From positions 1-59,431 of the IMG/VR virus record IMGVR_UViG_3300043313_002478: a stretch of DNA of 59,431 nucleotides. One strand, 5' to 3'. Shown here one piece after another: positions 3,787-41,200 of this stretch (its first letter is position 1; every line of letters starts with the position of its first letter). The notes beneath the pieces are model-generated. The model searched no databases, was not told the origin of the DNA, and was given only the letters and a program-made list of their open reading frames with translations. Made by a program: the position numbers and the translations under genes. Source of the DNA: a virus.

Positions 3787-4043
3787 TGGCCACCCCCGAT
3801 CACATGCGCGATCGGGGTGATGGCCAGGTGATGCAACGGCAACCCGCACGATCGGAAATTGGCGCGGATCCGCCGCTGGACCGTGGCCAGGGTGATCGTC
3901 GATCGGACATAGAACGACCCGATCACGGTCCGCGGGGGACTGACGGGCTCCCCCGGGTATTTCAGGGTGTAGGTATAGGTAAACGTCGCCAGGTTCGCGG
4001 TACTGGTGTACAACGGCCGGCCGTGTCGCTTAGATCGTGTCAT
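3783..4043 (-). CDS. Small hypothetical protein
   Basis: 86 residues from ATG 4043-4041, with GGGGGAGA just upstream. Basic N-terminus, then a Thr/Tyr-rich beta-type segment (ATFTYTYTLKYP) and a second beta/alpha part with RRIRANFRSCGLP. It resembles small ferredoxin-like or RNA-binding accessory folds only in broad pattern. Overlaps the upstream gene by 14 bp. Confidence 0.5.
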   Translation of the reverse strand: MTRSKRHGRPLYTSTANLATFTYTYTLKYPGEPVSPPRTVIGSFYVRSTITLATVQRRIRANFRSCGLPLHHLAITPIAHVIGGGQ

Positions 4044-4824
4044 GGTCTCCCCCTGAGAGCCCGGGCAAGTACCCGGCGCGATCGGCCACTCCCGCGGCCT
4101 TTTTCCAACTGGACCCGTGCACGGTAATCAGCACGTCCGGCCGGCGCCGGGGGGTATGCCCGGGTCCGAGCCCGTTACAGAGTCCACAGTGATAGCAATC
4201 GGTTTTGTGGCCACTCTCGGCCGACTTCGGGCAGACAATCTCACCCGGGGCCGGCGCCTGGTCGACACTGGACCGGAGCCGGAACGTCCGGTACCCCAGC
4301 GCGCGCGCGGCGGTGGCGTCCGCTTCGGACTCCACACTGGCCATACACAGATCCGCCCACGTGGGATCCACGTACCGCCACTGATGGGTGTACCCCGTCC
4401 ACCGTGGCGCCCGGCGGACCAAATCCTGCAGGACCCCAATCGGGACGGCCGCCGGATCGCCATAGGCGCCCAATCGAACCGGGGCGGAGATCCGCGCGGG
4501 CAAGGATCCCACGGGCGCGTACTTGCCGGCGGACCACGTCCGCCACACCTGGCCGAGTACCTTAGGATTCACATAGCACCCCCCGCCCCCATCGGCCGAA
4601 TTGGGCCGGAGGGGACAGGTCCCGCATACGCTGACATCCGTCCCCGCGTGGATCGCTTCGACGGGGTGGCGGTTCGCCTGCAGGATCCACAATTGGGCCA
4701 TGGGGCCCGTGCCGGGGTTATCGCTCGGGCGGTGGACCCCGGTCAGGATGGCCACGATCCGCGCGCGGGTGAGCGTCGAGGGTCCGTCATAGACCACATA
4801 CCCCAGGGGGTACCTGTTATTCAT
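4030..4824 (-). CDS. Conserved-type phage protein with two cysteine clusters
   Basis: 264 residues, ATG start, GAGGGGG upstream. Two clusters stand out: CGTCPLRP plus C83 near residues 67-83, and CPKS ... CYHCGLC near 198-217, with further invariant-looking motifs such as LGAYGDPAA and DVLITVHGSS. This arrangement (an N-terminal T-C-P cluster, a central G-x-Y-G-D-P, and a C-terminal CxxCGLC) resembles a widespread phage/plasmid family of unknown function, perhaps with an iron-sulfur centre. It is the largest gene of the leftward early run. Confidence 0.6.
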   Translation of the reverse strand: MNNRYPLGYVVYDGPSTLTRARIVAILTGVHRPSDNPGTGPMAQLWILQANRHPVEAIHAGTDVSVCGTCPLRPNSADGGGGCYVNPKVLGQVWRTWSAGKYAPVGSLPARISAPVRLGAYGDPAAVPIGVLQDLVRRAPRWTGYTHQWRYVDPTWADLCMASVESEADATAARALGYRTFRLRSSVDQAPAPGEIVCPKSAESGHKTDCYHCGLCNGLGPGHTPRRRPDVLITVHGSSWKKAAGVADRAGYLPGLSGGDHDTI

Positions 4825-5026
4825 GGCGGACCCCCTCGCGGATCGCCCAATCCCACAATTCCGGATCGTTCAAGACCCACAAGCGGATCTCACCATCCGT
4901 GATCGGGCGCCCGGGGGTGTACACCTGGGGGAGTCGGCGCCGGATGATCGGGACAATCCCGGGGCGGTGCCGTTCAATGAAGAATTCCACGGTCCCGAAT
5001 AGCGGCGGGGTGGTGTCGTGTGCCAT
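4817..5026 (-). CDS. Small hypothetical protein, leaderless start
   Basis: 69 residues from ATG 5026-5024. No Shine-Dalgarno site is visible; instead TAGATT ends six bases before the ATG, so the mRNA probably begins at or next to the start codon. The sequence is globular and acidic/aromatic (VLNDPELWDWAIREG). First gene of the leftward run 5026-1569, divergent from 5124. Function unknown. Confidence 0.55.
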   Translation of the reverse strand: MAHDTTPPLFGTVEFFIERHRPGIVPIIRRRLPQVYTPGRPITDGEIRLWVLNDPELWDWAIREGVRHE

Positions 5027-5032
5027 GGGCCC

Positions 5033-5062
5033 AATCTACACCCCCACCTCTACACTTGTCAA
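5033..5062 (-). promoter_or_regulatory. Leftward leaderless promoter
   Basis: Minus strand: TTGACA (5062-5057), 18-base spacer, TAGATT (5038-5033), six bases, then ATG 5026. A near-consensus sigma70-type promoter whose predicted start falls at the start codon. Its -35 box is the left arm of the operator palindrome described at 5056-5079. Confidence 0.65.
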
Positions 5063-5117
5063 TAGCCTAAGTTTGACAATCCACACCCCATCGTCTATAT
5101 TGTGGGTGGAGGTTCTA
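5056..5117 (+). promoter_or_regulatory. Rightward promoter/operator cassette, copy 1
   Basis: TTGTCAA (5056-5062) and TTGACAA (5073-5079) form a 7-bp inverted repeat around 10 bases. The right arm is a perfect -35 (TTGACA, 5073-5078), followed by 17 bases and TATATT (5096-5101). The leader GGGTGGAGGTTCTA (5104-5117) carries the ribosome site for ATG 5124. The same cassette recurs at 5671 and 7286. A protein bound to the palindrome would cover both divergent -35 boxes. Confidence 0.75.
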
Positions 5118-5123
5118 CCCCCT

Positions 5124-5573
5124 ATGCCTAAGACATCCCGCCCCGTGTTTACCCCCGATCAATTCACCCCCTATGACGATCCGCGCTGGGGGTCCGCCGT
5201 CGACAAAGCACGCTACGCGAATCACTTCGTGCGCTTTGTCCTGGGTGGCTTTCGGTCCACCCAATTCCCGCGCTGGTTCTACGTCCAGACGTCGTTTATG
5301 TGGGGCCATATCGCGGAGTACTCCCGCGACGGGTTTTACGCGACCTGGTTGGCCGATACCCCATCGCGCGCGCGTTTCCTGACTCGGTGTGTCCGGGGTG
5401 GGGGGTATGGATCACCCACACACACCTACGTGGACGTCGAACGCGCGATCGCGTCCTGGGTCCGCGATAGCGGGGTACTCGAGACCACGATCCGCGCGGC
5501 GGTGGCTGAAGTCGAACGGACCGAGCGCGCGAACCTCGCCCGACTGCAGGCGAAGTACCCCACCCCCGACTAA
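5124..5573 (+). CDS. Hypothetical protein
   Basis: 149 residues from ATG 5124, with GGAGG in the cassette leader upstream. Aromatic-rich N-terminal half (NHFVRFVLGGFRSTQF, RWFYVQTSFMWG) and a helical C-terminus with repeated Glu/Ala/Arg (AVAEVERTERANLARLQ) that may form a coiled coil. It is transcribed from its own strong promoter, consistent with an early gene. No family recognised. Confidence 0.6.
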   Translation: MPKTSRPVFTPDQFTPYDDPRWGSAVDKARYANHFVRFVLGGFRSTQFPRWFYVQTSFMWGHIAEYSRDGFYATWLADTPSRARFLTRCVRGGGYGSPTHTYVDVERAIASWVRDSGVLETTIRAAVAEVERTERANLARLQAKYPTPD

Positions 5574-11945: not shown

Positions 11946-13247
11946 ATGTTCTCCCCCCGCGCGGTCGCGGCCGCCGAGGCCCGGGTCTGTGACCAACTCG
12001 GCCTGCGCGGGGGGTTGATCCGCCGCCCCATTGACGCGTGCTGGGCGCTGCGGGAGCATTTGGACAGCCTCCGCGATGAGAGCGGCACCCTCCTCCGCCC
12101 CCTGACCCCGGAGGAGAACACCTTCATCCTCCACGAGACCCTCCTCGCCACGATCGACTATCGCTACTGGTCGGATCGCTGGGCGACCATCGCCAAGGAG
12201 ACGCAGGAAGCGGCGCCGATTTCCCCCCGCTGGGCCTCGCAGGAACTTTTCCTCGCGCGCATGGGGACCGTCGAGGACGACCATGCCGCATCGGGTAACC
12301 CCGACGGCGTGTTGATCAACATCCTCAAGGCGCGGCAGTTGGGCATCTCGACCGAGTGCGAGGTGATCCTCGCCCACCGCGTCACGACCCAGCCGACCGT
12401 GCGCGGCCTGGTCGCGGCCGACTCCCCCGAGCAGTCCGAATACCTGTTGTCCATGGCCGAATTCGTCATCGAGTCCCTCCCCTGGTGGCTGAAGGTCAAG
12501 GCGGTCCCGCCCACGGTGAAGGGGAAGATCCTCACCTTCCAGACCAACGCGTCCATTCGCGTCGGCGCGGGCAAGTCCATGCGCGGCGGGTTGGCCGACA
12601 AGGGCAAGTCCAAGGGGCAACTGGGCCGCGGGAAAACCTGGACCACGGTGCATCTCTCGGAAATCTCCACCTGGGAACGCCCCGAGCAGATCGAGGATTC
12701 CCTCATGCCCGGCGTGCCCCGCCGCGGCCACGTGTTCGTCGCACGGGAATCGACCGCCAAGGGCCGCTTCGACTACTGGCACCGCGAGTGGAACAAGGCC
12801 CGCGATGGCGTGGGGCGCTACACGAATATCTTCATCCCGTGGTACATCGAGCCGGACAAATACTGGCTCCCCGCACCCGAAGGGTGGGAGCCCTCCCCCT
12901 CCACGAAACAGCACGCCGAGGCGGTGGAGCTGGACTCCCCCAAGTGGTGCCTCGGGGCGACCCATCGGTTGTCGAGGGAGAAACTCTACTTCTATGAAGC
13001 CACGCGCGTGTCGTTCGAGAGCGACGGCGAACTCTACAAATTCTTCGAGGAGTACCCCGCCACGCCCGAGGAGGCGTTTCAACACGCGGGGCGCTCGATT
13101 TTCCCGGCCGCCGTCCTGGAGGCGCTCAAAGGGCAGGAACGTCCGCCCGTGTCGATTTGCGCGGTCGAACCCTTGAAGGATATTGCCCAACTCCGCGATT
13201 GGGAACGCCAAGTGGAATCGGCCAAAGCGCGCGCGGTGGGGGCCTAG
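11946..13247 (+). CDS. Large terminase, ATPase part
   Basis: 433 residues. The ATPase half of the DNA-packaging motor: the arginine-type Walker A KARQLGIST at 128-136 and the Walker B TVHLSE near 234-239, where Ser replaces the usual Asp before the catalytic Glu. No nuclease motifs are present; the frame ends at a TAG (13245-13247), and the nuclease part follows directly in the same reading frame. A full-length large terminase of this type is about 600-750 residues, so this is a split gene. Partners: small subunit (9197) and portal (15383). Confidence 0.85.
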   Translation: MFSPRAVAAAEARVCDQLGLRGGLIRRPIDACWALREHLDSLRDESGTLLRPLTPEENTFILHETLLATIDYRYWSDRWATIAKETQEAAPISPRWASQELFLARMGTVEDDHAASGNPDGVLINILKARQLGISTECEVILAHRVTTQPTVRGLVAADSPEQSEYLLSMAEFVIESLPWWLKVKAVPPTVKGKILTFQTNASIRVGAGKSMRGGLADKGKSKGQLGRGKTWTTVHLSEISTWERPEQIEDSLMPGVPRRGHVFVARESTAKGRFDYWHREWNKARDGVGRYTNIFIPWYIEPDKYWLPAPEGWEPSPSTKQHAEAVELDSPKWCLGATHRLSREKLYFYEATRVSFESDGELYKFFEEYPATPEEAFQHAGRSIFPAAVLEALKGQERPPVSICAVEPLKDIAQLRDWERQVESAKARAVGA

Positions 13248-14210
13248 ATGGTCGCCGACAACGACCTCCTCCTCCCCGCCGGGCATGGGTTCCGGGCGCT
13301 CAACGCGCGCGAGTTGCGCGAACGCGATCACCTGCGTGACCTCCTCCTCGTGTGGGAACGCCCGCGCCGCCGGGGCGACCGTCGCTATGTGATGGGCGTG
13401 GACGTGGCCGATGGCTTGGGGCTCGATCGCAGCGTCATCGAGGTCGCGCGGATGGGCACGATCGAGGAGCCGGCCGAGCAGGTCGCCCAATACGTGTCGG
13501 ACCAAATCTCCCCACCTGGTCTCGCCTACATCGTCCAGGCGATTGGGAATTGGTACACCGACCCCGACGGCGTCCCCGCCTGCGCGATGATCGAGTGCAA
13601 CAACCATGGGCTCTCCACCCAGGACACGCTCCAGCTCCACCTGGGCTACACCCACTTCTACCGCTGGGAATACCTCGACGCCGACACCCCGGAGTCGCGG
13701 TTCTCGCGCAAAATTGGCTGGTACACCACCGATCGCACCCGGCCCATCATCCTGGACAAGTTCCGCACGGCGCTCTGCACGGTGGACCCCATCACGGGCC
13801 TGCGCGACTACGTCACCCACTCCTCGATGCTCCACGAGGAACTGCAGGACTTCCAGACGAACGGGGCGTTGTGGGAAGCGGAAGCCGCCGCCGGCGCGCA
13901 CGACGACTGCATCATGGCCGCGGCGATCGCCCACTACGGGTGTTGGCGCCTCCAGGCCGGGGAAACCGAGCCCATGGACGACCGGCGGCGCCGCGCGAGT
14001 GAACAGCAGGCGCGGCTGGCCGCCGAGGCCGTGCGTCAGGGCCGTGTGTTGGATAAAGCCGATTGGCGCAACACCCCCACCACCGCCGATGAAATGGCCT
14101 CCTACGTGGGGGATGAGCCCGAGGATTTGGATCAGCAACTGTTTGACCCGCGCCAGCTCCCCGAGCGCGACGTGGCGCGGCTATTGGACAGCCGCTTCGG
14201 TCGGGGGTAA
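13248..14210 (+). CDS. Large terminase, nuclease part
   Basis: 320 residues from an ATG that abuts the TAG of the ATPase part (TAGATG) in the same frame. RNase-H-like nuclease motifs: GVDVADG with D52 and D55, MIECNN with E116, and AHDDCIMA with D219/D220, the acidic set that cuts concatemeric DNA at the headful or cos end. The C-terminal 80 residues are charged and probably contact the portal. It may be made separately or by reading through the TAG. Confidence 0.8.
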   Translation: MVADNDLLLPAGHGFRALNARELRERDHLRDLLLVWERPRRRGDRRYVMGVDVADGLGLDRSVIEVARMGTIEEPAEQVAQYVSDQISPPGLAYIVQAIGNWYTDPDGVPACAMIECNNHGLSTQDTLQLHLGYTHFYRWEYLDADTPESRFSRKIGWYTTDRTRPIILDKFRTALCTVDPITGLRDYVTHSSMLHEELQDFQTNGALWEAEAAAGAHDDCIMAAAIAHYGCWRLQAGETEPMDDRRRRASEQQARLAAEAVRQGRVLDKADWRNTPTTADEMASYVGDEPEDLDQQLFDPRQLPERDVARLLDSRFGRG

Positions 14211-24826: not shown

Positions 24827-25981
24827 ATGGCGCTGCATTCCTTCGGCACGACGTTCGGGTGTTCGATCCGGGCCAGCATGGCTCAGATCGCTCCCGGCTT
24901 CGATGCGGCGACAGTGTCACCGGGGTCGTGGCGGCTGCTCGTGGGGCTCCGTCCCAATCACGGTGGGCCGGGCAACTGCATGGTCGCCTACGCGCCGATT
25001 GGGGGCGTGAACCACGACTACAAGGTGGGGGTGTTCTTCGACCTGACTGGGACCGGGTTCAACGGGACGAGTCTGCACGGGTCGCTGCTCTCCCCGTGGG
25101 GGACCCTCCCGCATCTGGTCCCCAAAACCGACTGGCCGACCAAGATCATCTCCTGCCGCCTGAAGTACTCCACCTGGGACGACGTCGCCCTCACCTGGGC
25201 GGCCGACGGCGAGCTCGATCTCCGCATCGACGACGCGGTGGTGTACAGCGTCACCGGGCAGACACTCACCTTCGGCTCACCGACGTATTTCTTCACGCAC
25301 GGGCGGCAATGTGCGGTGGCCATGGTCCAGTGCGGGATCTCCGACGGCCCGTGGTGGACGACCACCGAGGACTACCCCACCTTCGTCGGTGCCCAGCACG
25401 TCCCGGTCGGCTCGAACATCAAGTTTTACTTCGACTTCGCCGACATGACGATGCCCGCCGGGTGGACCGTGCGGAGTTCGGTAGGGCTCACGGAGTTGCC
25501 GCTGTTCCGGCCCGACGGCGGCCTCGACAACACCGCCGCGATGACGACCGGGACGGCGCCCATGTCCATCTCGAACTGGGACAGCGACAACTACGACTAT
25601 CTCCCCTTCCAGGGGATGGGGTTCATCGACTCGTTCGAGCCGGTCGTGACCACCGGCTCGTTGAGCATCTCCAAGTCCCTGGAGACCCCCGACCCGACCG
25701 CCGAGTTTCTGTTCACCTGCGGGCCGGGGCTCGACCCCGCGACCTTCACCCTCAAGGGGGGCGAATCCCGCCTCTACAGCGGGGTGGTGCCCGGGAGCGG
25801 GTATTTCGTCACCGAGTCCCCGGCGACCGGCTGGGTCCAGACCGGGGTGGTCATCTCCAACGGGAGCCCCGGGGCGATTGTCGTGGCGGCGGATGTGGTC
25901 ACGACCGTCGCGTTCAGCAATGCGCTGACCCCGTTTACCCCCAGCGGATGCGTCCCCGATTGGCAGAGCCCGGTCGACTAG
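24827..25981 (+). CDS. Adhesin with SpaA/prealbumin-like C-terminal domain
   Basis: 384 residues. N-terminal 290 residues look like a concanavalin/LamG-type beta sandwich (DYKVGVFFDLTGTGF, DGELDLRIDDAVVYSV). The last 95 residues (GSLSISKSLE ... TVAFSNAL) match the Cna-B/SpaA-like repeat pattern: S-I-S-K, F-x-x-x-x-G-G-E-S, then Y-F-V-T-E and a final T-V-A-F-S-N. Such domains are common in Gram-positive surface adhesins, less so in phage tails. Probably a receptor-binding part. Confidence 0.5.
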   Translation: MALHSFGTTFGCSIRASMAQIAPGFDAATVSPGSWRLLVGLRPNHGGPGNCMVAYAPIGGVNHDYKVGVFFDLTGTGFNGTSLHGSLLSPWGTLPHLVPKTDWPTKIISCRLKYSTWDDVALTWAADGELDLRIDDAVVYSVTGQTLTFGSPTYFFTHGRQCAVAMVQCGISDGPWWTTTEDYPTFVGAQHVPVGSNIKFYFDFADMTMPAGWTVRSSVGLTELPLFRPDGGLDNTAAMTTGTAPMSISNWDSDNYDYLPFQGMGFIDSFEPVVTTGSLSISKSLETPDPTAEFLFTCGPGLDPATFTLKGGESRLYSGVVPGSGYFVTESPATGWVQTGVVISNGSPGAIVVAADVVTTVAFSNALTPFTPSGCVPDWQSPVD

Positions 25982-26008: not shown

Positions 26009-27871
26009 ATGCCACGCCTCAGTCCCTCAGGTGAGCGGGTCGTCTACGGCATCGACGGGCAGGTGCGGGTGCTGGTCAATGGGGTGACGGTCACCGTCCC
26101 GACCCCTCGCGCGGGGGCCTGGTCCTTCCAAGGCGAGACGATCGTGGGCGGGGGCGGGGTCGACCCCACCACCGGGAAATTCGGCACCCTCCGCTACCAC
26201 CTCGATACCGGGGTGCTGGACGTCCTCGACACCGCCGCCAACAGCAACTTCACGGGTTGGGGCGGCGCGTGGCACAGCGGGACCAAACCGATTGAATTGA
26301 TCGGCCCACCCCCGTTTGGGCTGCCCGGCGCGGTGTTGTACGACAACTCCGCCGGCGCGGGGTACGGGATGGTCACCCGGCAGGGGTATGCCGTCGCGCG
26401 GGTGAACGCGGCCACCTCACCCACCGGGACGGTGTTCTTCGCGCCGGACGGGTCCACGGGCCCGGCGACCTGGCCGACGGCGATTGCGCTGGCCGCCAAT
26501 GACGGCTGGCTCCTCCTACGCTACCCCGATGGCCGGGTGGCGTTCTCCACGGATGCCCCCACGGTGCACCGGACCCTCCTTGGTACCCCCGTGGCGCTGG
26601 CCGCCGTCGGTCCCGTCGTCTACATCGTCGAGTGGCAGGCGTCGTTTTCGCGGGTGATCCTCCGCCCGATCGACTCGGTGTTCGGCTGGGTGGTGTCCGC
26701 CAGCGGGCACGACTTCTACCCCGATGTGGTGTACGCCACCGACTCACTCCTCCACGTGGTGTCGTCGTGGGGCGCCGGGGAGCACCCGGGCGAACTCCAG
26801 ACCTACCTGTTCAACCCGGCCTCCACGGCGGGGCAGGTGGACCTGAGCGTCCCCTCGACCCCGGCGATGCCGCCCGTGACCGACGTCGCGTGGGTGGGCC
26901 GCCCGGCGGCGATGGCCGTGTATTGCTTCGCGGATGTGTCCACGCCCGGGCATTACACCCTCCCCGTGCGGCCGACCGTGCCCCCGCAGGACCCGGTCGC
27001 GGAAACCTCCTACTGGGACGGGACCGATATCCCGGTCGACTGGCTGCTGGCCCAACCCCTCTGGCGGCCCGTAGGGTTCCCCTGCTACCGCATCCACGGC
27101 GAGGGCCTCGATGCCTTCAAGGCCCGCATCACGACCGCCTATCACGTCGTGACCGCGCACGGGTACCGTCCGGCGCCGGTGTTTGGGCTCCACTCGGGGT
27201 GGACCTCTGCCGGCCGCTTCCGTACCGAGGTCGAAGTGGCCGAGGGGATTGTCGCCACCTCGCACCTGTCGGACCTCGACGCTACCCCTCTCGCGTGCGC
27301 GTTTGCCGCCGGCCGTGGGAACCTCCCCGACGGCCGCCCTGATGTGCTGCCGTCGGCGTGGGCGTATTTCGACGCGTACATGGCGGGGATTCCCAGCGCC
27401 GCCGACTGGCCCACCCCGCCACCTGACCCGGGGCCTGAGCCCCCGATTCCCCCGGAGCCCCCCATGCCGACGTCACGCAAAGTCTCGATCGCGTCCCGCG
27501 TGTTGAACACCCGCTTCGGCGACCCCGATCAGGGGTTCGAGGAACGCCCGACGATCGACAAGCCGCTCTCGCCCAAGGACCCGTGGCCGATGACCACCGG
27601 GCTCATCCAGGGTGACGAGACGTACACCCTCCAGACCTCGCCGTCAGGGGCGCCGTACCTCCGTTGGCCGAACGGCAACGTCATCGCCATCCGCAAGGAC
27701 GGCGGGCCGAACAATCTCGGGGGGAACCTCGCCGAAACCCCATGGCCCGGCGACACCTACGAACCGGGCCGCGACGAGAAGTTGGCCAAGACCGCCCAGG
27801 CCAACGTCTACGCCGAAGCGGAGCCGCCGGCCGGACGCGCCGCGGTAGCGTTCGCGCTGGTGTCCCTTTGA
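26009..27871 (+). CDS. Tail protein, beta-propeller-like; N-terminal half of a likely +1 frameshift fusion
   Basis: 620 residues. The first 320 residues alternate strands and turns (GERVVYGIDGQVRVLVNG; repeats with V-V-Y and W-x-x-G) in a way that suggests a propeller. Residues 330-470 contain SYWDGTDIP, YRIHGEGLDAFKARI and LHSGW, like part of a sugar-cleaving domain. A Pro-rich linker (PPDPGPEPPIPPEPP) and a beta domain follow. It ends ...VSL at CTT-TGA-C; the next frame is open across the stop and continues 327 residues. Confidence 0.6.
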   Translation: MPRLSPSGERVVYGIDGQVRVLVNGVTVTVPTPRAGAWSFQGETIVGGGGVDPTTGKFGTLRYHLDTGVLDVLDTAANSNFTGWGGAWHSGTKPIELIGPPPFGLPGAVLYDNSAGAGYGMVTRQGYAVARVNAATSPTGTVFFAPDGSTGPATWPTAIALAANDGWLLLRYPDGRVAFSTDAPTVHRTLLGTPVALAAVGPVVYIVEWQASFSRVILRPIDSVFGWVVSASGHDFYPDVVYATDSLLHVVSSWGAGEHPGELQTYLFNPASTAGQVDLSVPSTPAMPPVTDVAWVGRPAAMAVYCFADVSTPGHYTLPVRPTVPPQDPVAETSYWDGTDIPVDWLLAQPLWRPVGFPCYRIHGEGLDAFKARITTAYHVVTAHGYRPAPVFGLHSGWTSAGRFRTEVEVAEGIVATSHLSDLDATPLACAFAAGRGNLPDGRPDVLPSAWAYFDAYMAGIPSAADWPTPPPDPGPEPPIPPEPPMPTSRKVSIASRVLNTRFGDPDQGFEERPTIDKPLSPKDPWPMTTGLIQGDETYTLQTSPSGAPYLRWPNGNVIAIRKDGGPNNLGGNLAETPWPGDTYEPGRDEKLAKTAQANVYAEAEPPAGRAAVAFALVSL

Positions 27872-27872
27872 C
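27866..27872 (+). other. Putative +1 programmed frameshift site CTT-TGA-C
   Basis: The last sense codon CTT (27866-27868) and the stop TGA (27869-27871) followed by C form the exact heptamer used in bacterial prfB for +1 frameshifting. After slipping to TTT the next codon is GAC at 27870, which opens the 327-residue downstream frame. I see no prfB-like AGGGGG stimulator just upstream, only GGTG. Confidence 0.6.
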
Positions 27873-28853
27873 CCGGATATCCCTGCGCCACCCTCGGGTC
27901 CGCTCCGCGCGCTCCTGACCGTCCGCGGGAACTACCCCTATGGACCCAAGGGTCCCACCCGCCCCGACGGCTCCCGCGACTGGGACGACCTCACCTGTGT
28001 CGAGGACAACGCCTTCTTCCTCGACGAACTCGAACACGTCTGGCGCCGGGATGTCGGTCTCGCCGCGCGCATCCTGACGGAGTCGATCGCCAAGGGGATC
28101 AACGCGATCACCGTGGGCCCGGTCTACGCCGGTGGGTACCACGGCTGGTGGCCGGACACGAATTGGGTCGGGCAGGACCCGTCTACGTTTGCCGACTTCT
28201 GCGAGTGGGTGGCGGGGTTTGGCCTCTCCATCACCCTCGTCGTGTTCCCCGACTGCGGCATCTACTGGCACGGGACCGAAGCCGGGTGGGACTGGGCCGC
28301 GATCGACCGTGACCTCAAACCCCTCTACGACCAGGACCGGGTGCGCGCCGCGGTGTCGCGCGTGCAGTTCGGGTGGGAAATCTGGACCTACGTCGCCGGG
28401 ATGATCCCCGGCTACGACCGGATGCGCGCGTGGTTCCCCACCCAGGAACGCTGCTGGCACAACGGGCCCGAGCACGCCTCGCCCGGCATGGGTACCGAGG
28501 AGGAACGCCCCACGTGGCAAACGGCCGCCGACCACGGGATCCACCGCCTGCTGTTCCAGGGGTTCCCCCTCTCGACCGATCCGGCGACGATCGATCGGCC
28601 GCCGCTCGATCAGCTCAAGTACGACCTCTGGGATATGTGGCGGCGGTTCAACGGGACGGATGGGTCGCCGTGGGGTCCGACACCCATTCTCACCGAGCGC
28701 GGCACCCCCCTCGAAGTGGAGTACGCGGAAGCGGCCGCCTACGACATCACCAACCACAACGCGCCGGAGTCGATTGGGACCACCCTCGCCGACGCGGCGT
28801 TGTCGGTGGCCGGGGCCAGCCGTAACACGACCGATGGTCTGCCGAGCGCGTAG
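27870..28853 (+). CDS. TIM-barrel-like glycosidase domain, C-terminal half of the frameshift fusion
   Basis: 327 residues open from 27870 with no ATG, GTG or TTG until GTG 28113, yet the protein before that codon is clearly coding (TVRGNYPYGPKG, WDDLTCVEDNAFFLDELE, ARILTESIAKGINAITVGP). So the translation start must come from elsewhere, best explained by +1 frameshifting from 26009, giving a 947-residue protein. The alternating strands and helices, with GWWPDTNW, VVFPDCGIYW and FGWEIWTYVAGMIPGYDR, look like a glycoside-hydrolase TIM barrel. It may trim host surface glycan. Confidence 0.55.
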   Translation, partial: DPDIPAPPSGPLRALLTVRGNYPYGPKGPTRPDGSRDWDDLTCVEDNAFFLDELEHVWRRDVGLAARILTESIAKGINAITVGPVYAGGYHGWWPDTNWVGQDPSTFADFCEWVAGFGLSITLVVFPDCGIYWHGTEAGWDWAAIDRDLKPLYDQDRVRAAVSRVQFGWEIWTYVAGMIPGYDRMRAWFPTQERCWHNGPEHASPGMGTEEERPTWQTAADHGIHRLLFQGFPLSTDPATIDRPPLDQLKYDLWDMWRRFNGTDGSPWGPTPILTERGTPLEVEYAEAAAYDITNHNAPESIGTTLADAALSVAGASRNTTDGLPSA

Positions 28854-28862
28854 GGGGCACAC

Positions 28863-29180
28863 ATGCCCACCCGGGAGGACGTGGCCCTCGCGGCCTTGGT
28901 GCAGTTGATCGCCGCGCGGGTCCCCGGCACCCCGCGGGTGCTGGTGGCGCTGGCGTTCGAGTTTGGTGATGCGTGGCAGTTGGCGGTGAAACGGGATCAG
29001 GAGGAGTTGTACCCGGTGGCGGTGGCGCCGGCGCACGCGGGCGGGCCGGGCCGGAAACGGTGTATTGACGGGTTTACCAAACACAGTTGGGGAGCAGGTG
29101 ACACATGCGTACGATGCAGCTATCGGAACAAGGAACTCGCCGGGCGGATGCGAAGCTATCGGCGCGCGGTCTTGGAGTGA
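28863..29180 (+). CDS. Small zinc-knuckle hypothetical protein
   Basis: 105 residues, ATG start. N-terminal helical part (DVALAALVQLIAARV), then a short Cys cluster (KRCIDG ... HSW ... DTCVRCSYR) near residues 66-87, a possible treble-clef zinc site. Found within the tail gene group, last four bases overlapping the next gene. Confidence 0.5.
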   Translation: MPTREDVALAALVQLIAARVPGTPRVLVALAFEFGDAWQLAVKRDQEELYPVAVAPAHAGGPGRKRCIDGFTKHSWGAGDTCVRCSYRNKELAGRMRSYRRAVLE

Positions 29181-29845
29181 TTCTGGGCGGCCTGACCTGG
29201 CTGGTGTCGGTCACCGCCGCCTTCGCTCAGAACATCCCACCCACGACCACCGGCATCACCGTCGTGGCGCCGTCGTTGAATGGCACCTACATGGGGGTGC
29301 TCAACGTCGATGTGGTGATCGTCGCGCCGGCCACCCCGCCGCTCACCGCCACGCTGCGTCAGGAGGGGGTGTTCGCCCCCCTCGCCACCTCGGCCCTGAC
29401 CCTCTCGGGCAATGACCACTACATCGCGGTGTTCGCGCTCCCGGCCGTGGCCAGTCCCACCGGGATGGTCCTGACCGTCACCGACGGCACGCGCGCGGCG
29501 CAGCGGCCGTTCATGGTGGGCGTAGGGACGGTGGATCCGCTCCCGCCCCAGCCCCCCTCGGCCACCTTTACCCAGATCATGGCCCTCCTCGCGGCGATGG
29601 CGTCCCAGGCGGACACCAACCAGAAGGTCACACTCGAATCGCTGCAAAAGGGGTTCGCGCAACTCGCGCCGCTGCCCACCCCCACGGGGATCCCCTGCCG
29701 GGTGGCCAGCGCGACGACTGTGTACGCCAACGGACACTGGAAGGTCACCTTGGACTGCCCGTCGAGCATCGCGCCGGCGCCGCCCGCGAAGGAGTCCACC
29801 ATCGCCGTGTTCGGGGCCACCAGCGCCGCGATTGTGCGAAAGTAG
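29177..29845 (+). CDS. Tail-region protein with signal-peptide-like start
   Basis: 222 residues from GTG 29177, which overlaps the previous TGA (GTGA). An ATG at 29105 gives 24 more residues, but its codons (CTA, ACT, GGT) differ from the rest, so I prefer the GTG. The first 17 residues (ILGGLTWLVSVTAAFAQ) look like a cleavable signal. The body is an Ig-like beta sandwich (TTGITVVAPSLNGTYMG, LTVTDGTRAAQRPF), followed by a helix and a C-terminal pair of cysteines. Confidence 0.5.
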   Translation: MILGGLTWLVSVTAAFAQNIPPTTTGITVVAPSLNGTYMGVLNVDVVIVAPATPPLTATLRQEGVFAPLATSALTLSGNDHYIAVFALPAVASPTGMVLTVTDGTRAAQRPFMVGVGTVDPLPPQPPSATFTQIMALLAAMASQADTNQKVTLESLQKGFAQLAPLPTPTGIPCRVASATTVYANGHWKVTLDCPSSIAPAPPAKESTIAVFGATSAAIVRK

Positions 29846-32441: not shown

Positions 32442-32777
32442 ATGGTGGTGGCGTACAGCGGCGCGGCCCCGAACGCCGGGGCGACGATGACGGTGCTGCT
32501 CTCGGGCACCCCCACCCCGGCGACCATCTACGCCGACGACCTCCTCACCCCGCTAGCCAATCCGTTCACCGCGGATTTGCTCACCGGGGCGTACCTGTTT
32601 TATGCGGATGATGCCCTCGCCTATGACGTCCAGGCGGCGGTCCCCTCCACCCCCGACCTGGTGGAGAACCCCGGGGACCCGTTTGTGGTCGCCGGCGGGG
32701 TCACCCCCAACCGGGTGATCAGCTTGGTGGTCAACGATAACGGGACCCAGATCGTCCTCGCGCAGGTGGTGTACTAA
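32442..32777 (+). CDS. Small fibre-type protein
   Basis: 111 residues. The sequence (TVLLSGTPTPATIYADD, NPFTADLLTGAYLFYADDALAYDV) matches the short domain L-x-G-T-x-T-x-A-x-I-Y-x-D ... G-x-Y-x-F-Y-x-x-x-x-x-Y-D-V commonly placed in phage tail fibres. Here it is a free-standing gene whose stop overlaps the next ATG (TAATG), suggesting both products work together. Confidence 0.6.
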   Translation: MVVAYSGAAPNAGATMTVLLSGTPTPATIYADDLLTPLANPFTADLLTGAYLFYADDALAYDVQAAVPSTPDLVENPGDPFVVAGGVTPNRVISLVVNDNGTQIVLAQVVY

Positions 32778-34078
32778 TGCCCAAGCCGTTCACCCTGGCC
32801 CTGAACGCGCTGCTCGTCGGCGCGCTCCTCAACCTGACCCTCGACGCGCAGACCCCCCGGATGGTGGTCCCCGGCGCCGCGACCCTGCCCGCCACCTGCA
32901 GCGCGCAGCAGGTGATTTTCCACACGACCGCCCCCATCGGCCTCTACCAGTGTGTGGCGGCCAACACGTGGAGCCAACTCGCCGAGGCGACCGGGGGCGG
33001 CGCGCCGGCCGACGCGGTGTACTGGCTGGGGGCGTCGAATGTCACCCTGACCAACGGGAAGAACCTCGGGGCGCTCTCCACCGGGCTGGTGTTGAACACG
33101 GCCGGGACGCCCACCGCGTATGGCGGGTCGGCGTGTACCAACCAGTTTGTCCGGTCGCTCAATGGCAGCGCGGTGGCCACCTGCGCGACGGTCTCGCTCA
33201 CCGCGGACGTCACCGGGTTGCTCCCCCTCGCCAACGTGGCGAACGCGTCGGCCGCCTCGGTCCTGCTCGGGCGGGGCAGCGCCGGCGGCGCGGGGGTGTA
33301 CCAGGAAATCACCCTCGGGGCGAACCTCGAAATCTCGGGCACCGTGCTCTCGGTCACGGGCGGCGGCGCCGGCGGCAACGTCACCTCCTCGACCGCGATT
33401 GGGTCCGAGCCGGGATCGCCCGCGAGTGGGGATGTCGACTTCTACACGAACACCCCGCAGTTGGCGCGGTATTCGGGCAGCGCGTGGGTCCCGTGGGGCC
33501 CGCTGTTCAAGTTCACCACCCCCTCGGGTTCGTTCTCGTGGGTCAACCAAGGCTCGGCCACCATTTCCACCACCGGCGGGGGCTACACGCTCGTGGGCGA
33601 GGCGGTCGGCAACACCGCCAACCTGAACATCCGGGTCGAGACCGCCCCATCCACCCCGTGGACGCGCACCGCCTACTTCGAGCCCATCTTCGTCCAGAAG
33701 GGGTTCAACGGCTACGGCATGTGCTTCCGCCAGTCGTCGGACGGCAAGATGGCCGTGCTCAACCTCCTCGCCTTCGACGCCGGGCTGACCACCCTCGCCA
33801 TGGCGTCGAGCAAGTACAGCGGCGCGACCGGCGCGATCACCGTCACCGACTACGTCGCGCAGCACGCCCCGAACGTGATCCACTGGGTGCGCTTCGGCGA
33901 TAACGGGACGAACCGGACCATCGAAATCTCCGCCGACGGGCAGAATTGGCTCCTGTTTCATTCGGTCGCGCGGACCGACTACATGACGGCTGACCAGGTG
34001 GGGTTCTATGTGACCGGCCAGAACGCGGCCACCCCCAACTACGCGCCGATTCTCCGGGTCCTGAGCTGGGGCTCCTAA
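32777..34078 (+). CDS. Receptor-binding tail protein, lectin-like C-terminus
   Basis: 433 residues. N-terminal hydrophobic segment (FTLALNALLVGALLNLTLDAQ) like a signal peptide, then a conserved short fold with two cysteines (LPATCSAQQVIFHTT ... GLYQCV) seen at fibre starts. A Ser/Gly-rich shaft and a concanavalin-like C-terminal domain follow (FSWVNQGSATIS, GYGMCFRQSSDGKMAVL, IHWVRFGDNGTNRTIEI). Probably binds host surface sugars. Confidence 0.6.
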   Translation: MPKPFTLALNALLVGALLNLTLDAQTPRMVVPGAATLPATCSAQQVIFHTTAPIGLYQCVAANTWSQLAEATGGGAPADAVYWLGASNVTLTNGKNLGALSTGLVLNTAGTPTAYGGSACTNQFVRSLNGSAVATCATVSLTADVTGLLPLANVANASAASVLLGRGSAGGAGVYQEITLGANLEISGTVLSVTGGGAGGNVTSSTAIGSEPGSPASGDVDFYTNTPQLARYSGSAWVPWGPLFKFTTPSGSFSWVNQGSATISTTGGGYTLVGEAVGNTANLNIRVETAPSTPWTRTAYFEPIFVQKGFNGYGMCFRQSSDGKMAVLNLLAFDAGLTTLAMASSKYSGATGAITVTDYVAQHAPNVIHWVRFGDNGTNRTIEISADGQNWLLFHSVARTDYMTADQVGFYVTGQNAATPNYAPILRVLSWGS

Positions 34079-39463: not shown

Positions 39464-41200
39464 ATGCGGATCTCCACCACCGGGTCCATCGTGTATGGCA
39501 CCGATCGGGTCGCCATCGACGGCGCGATCCCCGCCGCGCTGAACAGTATCCAGGGCGGGCAGGTCTCGTGGTACGACGCCACGACGGTGTTCTGGCGCGA
39601 GGACCTCGGCGCCGGCGCGAGTGGCCTGCGCTTCTACGACACCGTCTCGCACGCGATCACCACCATCGACAACGTCGGGGCCAACGTCGCGTGGGCGGGG
39701 CAAGGGCGCTGGGCGGCGTGGTTGGCGGGGGGCCCGAGCCGGGGTGTGCGGACCTCCTTCGGCGTGGTTACCCCACCGAACGGCATGGGCATGGGCGACG
39801 TCGCGGGGGACACCGGCGATATCGTGCTGGTCTCCTCCTACGCGAGTGGCTCGGGCCTGCGGTGTTATCAAAGCGGCGCGCTCACCCGCACCTTCAACGG
39901 GACCCTCAACCAGCCGATCATCCGCACGCGGTACGGGGCGGTCGCGTTTGGCCAGCCCGCCGGGTGGTACGTGGTGAACATCGCCACGGGGAACACCGTG
40001 GGGTACTACCGCCGGACCGACCCGGTGAATTGGATCATCCCCATCTACGACGGGACTGACTGGTGGGTGGTGGAGCGGGTGGAGAACTTGTCCATTCGCA
40101 AGGTGGACAGCGACCAGGCGTACATCATCGAGCCCAACCCGATTGCGTTCGCGCCAGACGCCATCCTCCTGTCCGCCGGCGTGGCGCGCATCGCCTACAC
40201 CATCACTGAGGGCGAGGCGCTCAGTGACCTCGTCGTGGTCAACCTGACGTTGAACTCCGGCGCGGCGACCCGCGGGGTGGTGAGCGGCGGGACGATCAAC
40301 TACGCCGCGACGTCGTTCTCGCCGACCACCGTGGGCCTCACCGGTCCGGCCGGGAACCCCTCGGGTGGGGGTGGCGGCGGCGGTGGCGGGGGTGGGGGTG
40401 GCACCCCCCAGAACCCCACGATCATCCCGCGGATTCAGCGCCCGGAGCCGCCCCCCTCGCGGGCGACCCGGCTCTACCCGCATGTCGACCAAATCAAGGA
40501 CACCGCGGCGAAGCAGTCCCTGCGGGTGTTGTGGGACCAGCACCACGATGTGGTCGACCAGATTCGTACCGTCCAAGCGACCCAAACCCGGCAGGCGACC
40601 GCGATCACCCAGGCCCAATCCACCGCCACCGCCGCGCAAACCGCCACCGCGCAGAACGCCGCCCTCGCCGGGAAGCAGACCAGCGCGTTCCCGGGCGACT
40701 CGATTCAAATCTCGGGGGTGGGCACCGGGAGTGGTGGCGCCGGGACCGGGGGTGGGGGTGGCGATGCGGCGTGGGACCAAGGACAGGGGGGCTCGGGGTT
40801 GGCGTCGAGCTACCCCACCGGGCACGCCCCGGCCGGCGCGCCGCTGGACCTGGTCACCGTGGGGAGGATCTTGGGTGGGGTCCAGAAGGAATGGTCCGCC
40901 CTCCTCGCCCCGGCGGCCAGCGGCCCCGCCCGGGACGCGAACCTCGCCGAATTCATCGTCCGGCTGATCTGGCACCTCGCCCAGGCCGGGTTCACCGCGG
41001 GCAACAACCGCAACCCCTCCGGCGCCACCGGCATCGACAACTTCGTGGCCCAGGTGGACGGGGTGTTCCGGGGGTATGATATTTTCCCAGCGGCCAACTT
41101 CAGCGCCTATGGCTCGTTTTTGAACCAGGCGCAGATTCAGATGTTGCCGCTCGGTACCAGCGAAACCGGGTACATCCCCAACGCGGGGTTGCCCGACTAG
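39464..41200 (+). CDS. Tail protein: propeller-like head, poly-Gly linker, coiled coil
   Basis: 578 residues. Residues 1-290 have short WD/Kelch-like strand pairs (SIVYGTDRVAIDG, VAWAGQGRWAAWLAGG). A run of 13 glycines at about 301-313 links to a helical segment (LRVLWDQHHDVVDQIRTVQ then Gln/Ala/Thr-rich) likely to form a trimeric coiled coil. A second Gly-rich linker leads to a C-terminal globular tip. The start of the propeller resembles that of the 26009 protein (GERVVYGIDG). A spike or fibre assembly role is likely. Confidence 0.5.
   Translation: MRISTTGSIVYGTDRVAIDGAIPAALNSIQGGQVSWYDATTVFWREDLGAGASGLRFYDTVSHAITTIDNVGANVAWAGQGRWAAWLAGGPSRGVRTSFGVVTPPNGMGMGDVAGDTGDIVLVSSYASGSGLRCYQSGALTRTFNGTLNQPIIRTRYGAVAFGQPAGWYVVNIATGNTVGYYRRTDPVNWIIPIYDGTDWWVVERVENLSIRKVDSDQAYIIEPNPIAFAPDAILLSAGVARIAYTITEGEALSDLVVVNLTLNSGAATRGVVSGGTINYAATSFSPTTVGLTGPAGNPSGGGGGGGGGGGGGTPQNPTIIPRIQRPEPPPSRATRLYPHVDQIKDTAAKQSLRVLWDQHHDVVDQIRTVQATQTRQATAITQAQSTATAAQTATAQNAALAGKQTSAFPGDSIQISGVGTGSGGAGTGGGGGDAAWDQGQGGSGLASSYPTGHAPAGAPLDLVTVGRILGGVQKEWSALLAPAASGPARDANLAEFIVRLIWHLAQAGFTAGNNRNPSGATGIDNFVAQVDGVFRGYDIFPAANFSAYGSFLNQAQIQMLPLGTSETGYIPNAGLPD

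Follow-up and report, generated by a model that had tools for sequence, protein, structure and literature searches.

A prfB-type CTTTGAC slip site in a putative phage virion gene points to programmed +1 frameshifting at the end of a shared cassette

Introduction

Release factor 2 (RF2) regulates its own synthesis through the sequence CUU-UGA-C, a textbook switch. Within this signal, no known shift site of its type is more efficient than CUU_U, and UGA-C is a poor terminator (PMC5009743, PMC12421855). Shifts of +1 at stop codons also occur in phage tail genes: the tsh gene of the Listeria phages PSA, A118 and A500 shifts at a CCC_UGA stop (PMC5009743), and MTP-TpeX of the lactococcal 936 phages is made by a +1 slip at CCC.UAG, through which some tail subunits gain a predicted carbohydrate-binding domain (PMC4759559). 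In a 70S system, a GC-rich hairpin by the E site can substitute for the Shine-Dalgarno duplex on CUUUGA (Huang et al., 2018, PMC6321510), an effect that reached about 60% of Shine-Dalgarno stimulation and was seen only without RF2 (PMC6321510).

Here we describe a locus in a virus record of 59,431 bases (68% GC), which was analysed over its full length and is called the window below. One of its ORFs ends in GTG TCC CTT TGA C on the + strand. The slip heptamer is identical to that of prfB; however, the gene does not encode RF2 by Pfam or PHROGs, which assign it no family, the shift would fall late (codon 620) whereas it is early in prfB, an AGGGGG-like Shine-Dalgarno sequence 3 nt upstream of CTT is absent, and both products could be functional. 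The resemblance to prfB is thus confined to the slip site, and without the Shine-Dalgarno sequence and outside an RF2 gene the element does not belong to the prfB element family. With the +1 shifty-stop extensions of phages (Listeria tsh, lactococcal MTP-TpeX and the Bacillus SPP1 tail protein), the locus shares a predicted +1 slip at a stop that would yield short and long forms, and here a coding +1 frame runs beyond the stop with no start of its own. In contrast to the leucine codon CTT found here, those systems slip on proline codons (CCC_UGA in the Listeria paper, CCC.UAG in the lactococcal one), and their base protein is the major tail protein, whereas the base protein here has no family match. 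Lactococcal MTP-TpeX is the closest working analogue (PMC4759559). The original prediction held that frameshifting in phage tails is usually -1 and that +1 at TGA in an adhesin-type protein would be unusual, but +1 stop-codon shifts have already been documented in phage tail genes (PMC5009743, PMC4759559), so that what is unusual here is the prfB heptamer and the modular cassette.

Results

The prediction had placed a prfB-type site at the end of the ORF that begins at 26009, and the exact heptamer lies there (Table 1). Reading CTTT as one step gives a predicted protein of 947 residues that ends at 28853 and has the junction-spanning sequence ALVSLDPDIPAPP. The last +1-frame stop 5' of the slip site is the TAG at 27846-27848, and the +1 frame is open from 27849 to 28853; therefore, the frame change is confined to 27849-27868. 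As had been claimed, the +1 frame is open through the stop and has no ATG, GTG or TTG before the GTG at 28113, which is 243 nt beyond the shift, and the coding bias runs straight through. At the level of sequence, these features support a +1 frameshift site of prfB type with would-be products of 620 and 947 residues.

Table 1. Features of the window at and around the slip site
Feature	Position	Strand	Basis or detail
Upstream ORF, 620-aa product if ribosomes terminate at TGA	26009..27871	+	ORF list, GC3 coding signal
N-terminal region, not common to L016 except for a proline-rich stretch	26009..27457	+	alignment vs L016 N-terminal region
137-aa cassette, 73% identical in L016, ends exactly at slip codon	27458..27868	+	tblastn, alignment A1
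58-nt block ending in heptamer, 54/58 identical to L016	27815..27872	+	
Candidate stimulatory hairpin, 16 bp	27825..27862	+	3' end adjoins E-site codon TCC 27863-27865
prfB-type slip heptamer CTT TGA C	27866..27872	+	CTT 27866-27868, TGA 27869-27871, C 27872
C-terminal domain in the +1 frame: 327 codons, the first being GAC 27870, and a stop	27870..28853	+	
Window genes partly shared with L016's phage	24827-25981, 29105-29845, 32777-34078, 39464-41200		

The coding signal changes frame at the same place. The third-position GC (GC3) signal lies in the 0 frame up to the slip site and in the +1 frame beyond it, and a codon-usage Viterbi run on the window, performed without gene annotation, switched frame at 27864/27865, which was the sole start-less switch (no usable start) among 28 same-strand switches. 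The heptamer occurs once in the 59-kb window on either strand, against 3.2 occurrences expected from dinucleotide shuffles, and that single copy sits at the stop of this ORF. The CTT codon accounts for 20 of the 14,029 codons in the window (0.14%).

One gene might have been split by an assembly or sequencing error of a single base, or by a recent frameshift mutation, with the heptamer there by coincidence; this reading gains from the source being a metagenome contig and from the short homopolymer context CCCTTT. We simulated such events by inserting or duplicating one base, or deleting two, at every coding position and reading to the first stop. CTTTGAC appeared at the first stop in 0 of 28,844 duplications, 3 of 116,326 insertions and 3 of 28,857 two-nucleotide deletions, so that random indels in this genome would place the heptamer at the first stop in at most about 1e-4 of cases, although chance figures of this kind carry the caveat that the site was selected in a reading of the window that looked for unusual features of any sort. 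Because simulated indels seldom yield CTTTGAC at the first stop, a random break is a poor explanation, and the finding of 0 other start-less switches among the 28 also speaks against an error.

Further evidence on this question came from a relative, L016 (part of IMG/VR contig 3300027533_000012), which was found with a junction-centred query after whole-ORF searches had failed. L016 encodes a counterpart (4860-5252) of window residues 484-620, the cassette of Table 1, and its cassette ends in CTC CTT TGA C, with the heptamer at L016 5250-5256. From there L016 has 324 open codons in the +1 frame, and its coding signal likewise changes frame at CTTTGAC. Neither of two further CTTTGACs in its contig is at a frame junction. 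The original prediction had proposed comparing related phages for a CTTTGAC at this position, and the outcome was positive. Since the break recurs at the same base in a contig that is 27% different in protein, we consider an error or recent mutation highly improbable; a shared assembly error in two contigs this different is very unlikely, and if the gene were a decaying pseudogene, one would not expect both phages to have retained a long +1 frame with coding bias.

The comparison also bears on whether a frameshift is needed at all. The ORFs adjoin, and reinitiation near stop codons is common in phage operons, which would suit two separate products with the second begun by reinitiation or by a non-standard start just past the stop. 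However, no ATG, GTG or TTG is present for 243 nt in the window or 276 nt in L016, the coding bias begins at the stop itself, and both phages keep the slippery CTT, a rare codon in each (0.14% of codons in the window and 0.19% in L016's phage); we give separate products little credence. Simple readthrough of the TGA in the 0 frame would be helped by the leaky TGA-C context and by a 0 frame that stays open for 146 codons in the window, but that frame lacks coding bias past the stop there, and it closes after 10 codons in L016, which contradicts readthrough and leaves it with almost no probability.

Outside the cassette, the two phages have little in common. A local alignment of their C-terminal regions scored no better than shuffles and the global z was about 3, which makes homology between the C-domains only suggestive, and the window's portal, terminase and major head genes had no detectable similarity in the 40 kb of L016's contig that was read. 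Because the flanking protein and the head genes differ between the two phages, the cassette with its slip site behaves like a module whose N- and C-terminal partners differ. Adhesion-type genes are common to the two phages; head genes are not. Four window genes (Table 1) are partly common to L016's phage at 32-56% identity (contig parts L034 and L035), and parts of the window ORFs 39464 and 32777 have homologues within one 780-aa ORF of L016's contig.

Nucleotide conservation rises close to the slip site. The last 58 nt of the cassette and heptamer are 93% identical between the window and L016, as compared with 253/339 (75%) for the remaining cassette, and unchanged residues use the same codon in 15/17 cases at the cassette end vs 45/79 elsewhere (Fisher P = 0.025, with Met and Trp excluded and the boundary set after the data were seen). 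The rare codons GTA and GGA are also kept in both. This high identity would fit an RNA constraint or recent recombination, which two sequences cannot separate. With 93% identity over the whole 58-nt block, the fact that the heptamer is conserved is no independent proof of selection on it.

We also evaluated possible stimulators of slippage. The prediction noted that a prfB-like AGGGGG stimulator was not evident, and this was confirmed: pairing with the core anti-Shine-Dalgarno sequence gave -3.0 kcal/mol, as compared with -10.6 kcal/mol for a prfB-like control, and a Shine-Dalgarno stimulator was rejected. Downstream structure at the slip site was ordinary (shuffle z -0.91 to 0.38). Upstream, the candidate hairpin of Table 1 is among the best 0.5% of window coding positions and is also able to form in L016, where its two differences preserve pairs as U-G. 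Synonymous recoding gave P = 0.024 for the window and 0.28 for L016, and shuffle z-scores were near zero. Like the hairpin of the CUUUGA reporter, this one is GC-rich, adjoins the E-site codon and would take the role of the Shine-Dalgarno duplex; unlike it, this hairpin is natural and a candidate only, whereas the reporter was synthetic (PMC6321510). These data lend slight support to the hypothesis that the hairpin replaces the Shine-Dalgarno duplex of prfB.

The earlier description of the product as a propeller plus TIM-barrel tail protein found no backing, since Pfam, PHROGs and PDB gave no match and both AlphaFold models were of low confidence (mean pLDDT 32.8 and 36.0). The gene is on the same strand as the portal and head genes and downstream of them. 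Searches for homologues used either short peptide patterns matched exactly or single sequences as queries, by which distant relatives may be missed. On this basis, the C-domain and the whole 620-aa ORF had no relatives in viral contigs, the C-domain and the cassette had no match in genome contigs, and neither tblastn against phages and plasmids nor DNA searches with the 58-nt block returned a relevant match. Neither part had a homologue in thirteen contigs found via the portal protein or in 50 kb of Tunturi_1, a Tunturiibacter phage with a related portal, and with DNA patterns across the junction and AAVAFALV, L016's contig held the only true cassette.

The closest backbone relative found, L002 (IMGVR_UViG_3300037440_000581), is a 4.5-kb contig with a portal 66% and a major head protein 78% identical to those of the window, and it ends before the slip-site region. 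Separately, the window's terminase large subunit (TerL, 11946-14210) is divided between two ORFs, one for the ATPase (11946-13247) and one for the nuclease, the latter starting at the next base (ATG 13248). TerL of another contig, L003 (4699-6217), is also in two frames, and that of Tunturi_1 is a single ORF. L003 further carries an in-frame TerL insertion at the ATPase motif (3852-4699) that is intein-like in appearance (ARQLGM / CLKENTKIL...GFVSHN / STVF); the insertion residue is also where the TerL matches in L004, L008 and L009 break off or start, and the window copy is uninterrupted there.

Discussion

Sequence anatomy, coding frames and conservation were observed directly, and the reading that we prefer, at a probability of roughly 0.83, is a conserved programmed +1 shifty stop that fuses exchangeable C-terminal domains to a putative virion protein, with the case for conservation resting on two sequences, the window and L016. 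A ribosome with CUU in its P site that meets UGA-C in the A site would either terminate, giving the 620-aa protein, or have its tRNA-Leu slip from CUU to UUU, so that GAC would enter the A site and the 947-aa protein with an extra C-terminal domain would be made. The slip site is the 3' end of a 137-aa cassette that joins different N- and C-terminal regions in two largely unrelated phages, and it probably determines how many subunits of a virion protein are plain and how many extended, the C-terminal extension perhaps serving as a receptor-binding or enzymatic domain. What we infer is that slippage occurs here, that the two proteins are made and belong to the virion, and any response to RF2.

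A real frameshift might still be a tolerated by-product of domain shuffling, in which a C-domain arrived out of frame and low-level slippage is enough without regulation. The same origin has been proposed for frameshift-made Ig-like extensions in phages (PMC5009743), a check of Shine-Dalgarno pairing, downstream structure and the hairpin revealed no strong stimulator, and the two phages share adhesion-type genes rather than head genes. However, no more efficient slip site of its type is known (PMC5009743), and this one stayed in place while both flanks changed. We regard such a by-product as possible but on balance unlikely; because it is a sub-case of the programmed shifty stop, its probability overlaps with that given above. 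A bolder proposal, which we consider doubtful, is a mobile frameshift module in which the prfB-slip cassette, its upstream hairpin replacing the Shine-Dalgarno duplex, would be exchanged among unrelated phages and would attach interchangeable receptor-binding or enzymatic domains to a fraction of virion subunits tuned by host RF2.

In the literature searched, which left subscription journals and preprints largely uncovered, we found no report of CUU-UGA-C in a phage virion gene. Taken together, the locus looks like a reusable switch for short and long forms of a putative virion protein and not like a sequencing error. Should the hairpin act as a stimulator, it would provide a natural instance of what synthetic constructs have demonstrated up to now. 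If the site works, the level of RF2 in the host could set the number of subunits with the extra domain, and a cassette that keeps its frame break while the protein on either side differs would be a natural case of frameshifting that serves domain exchange.
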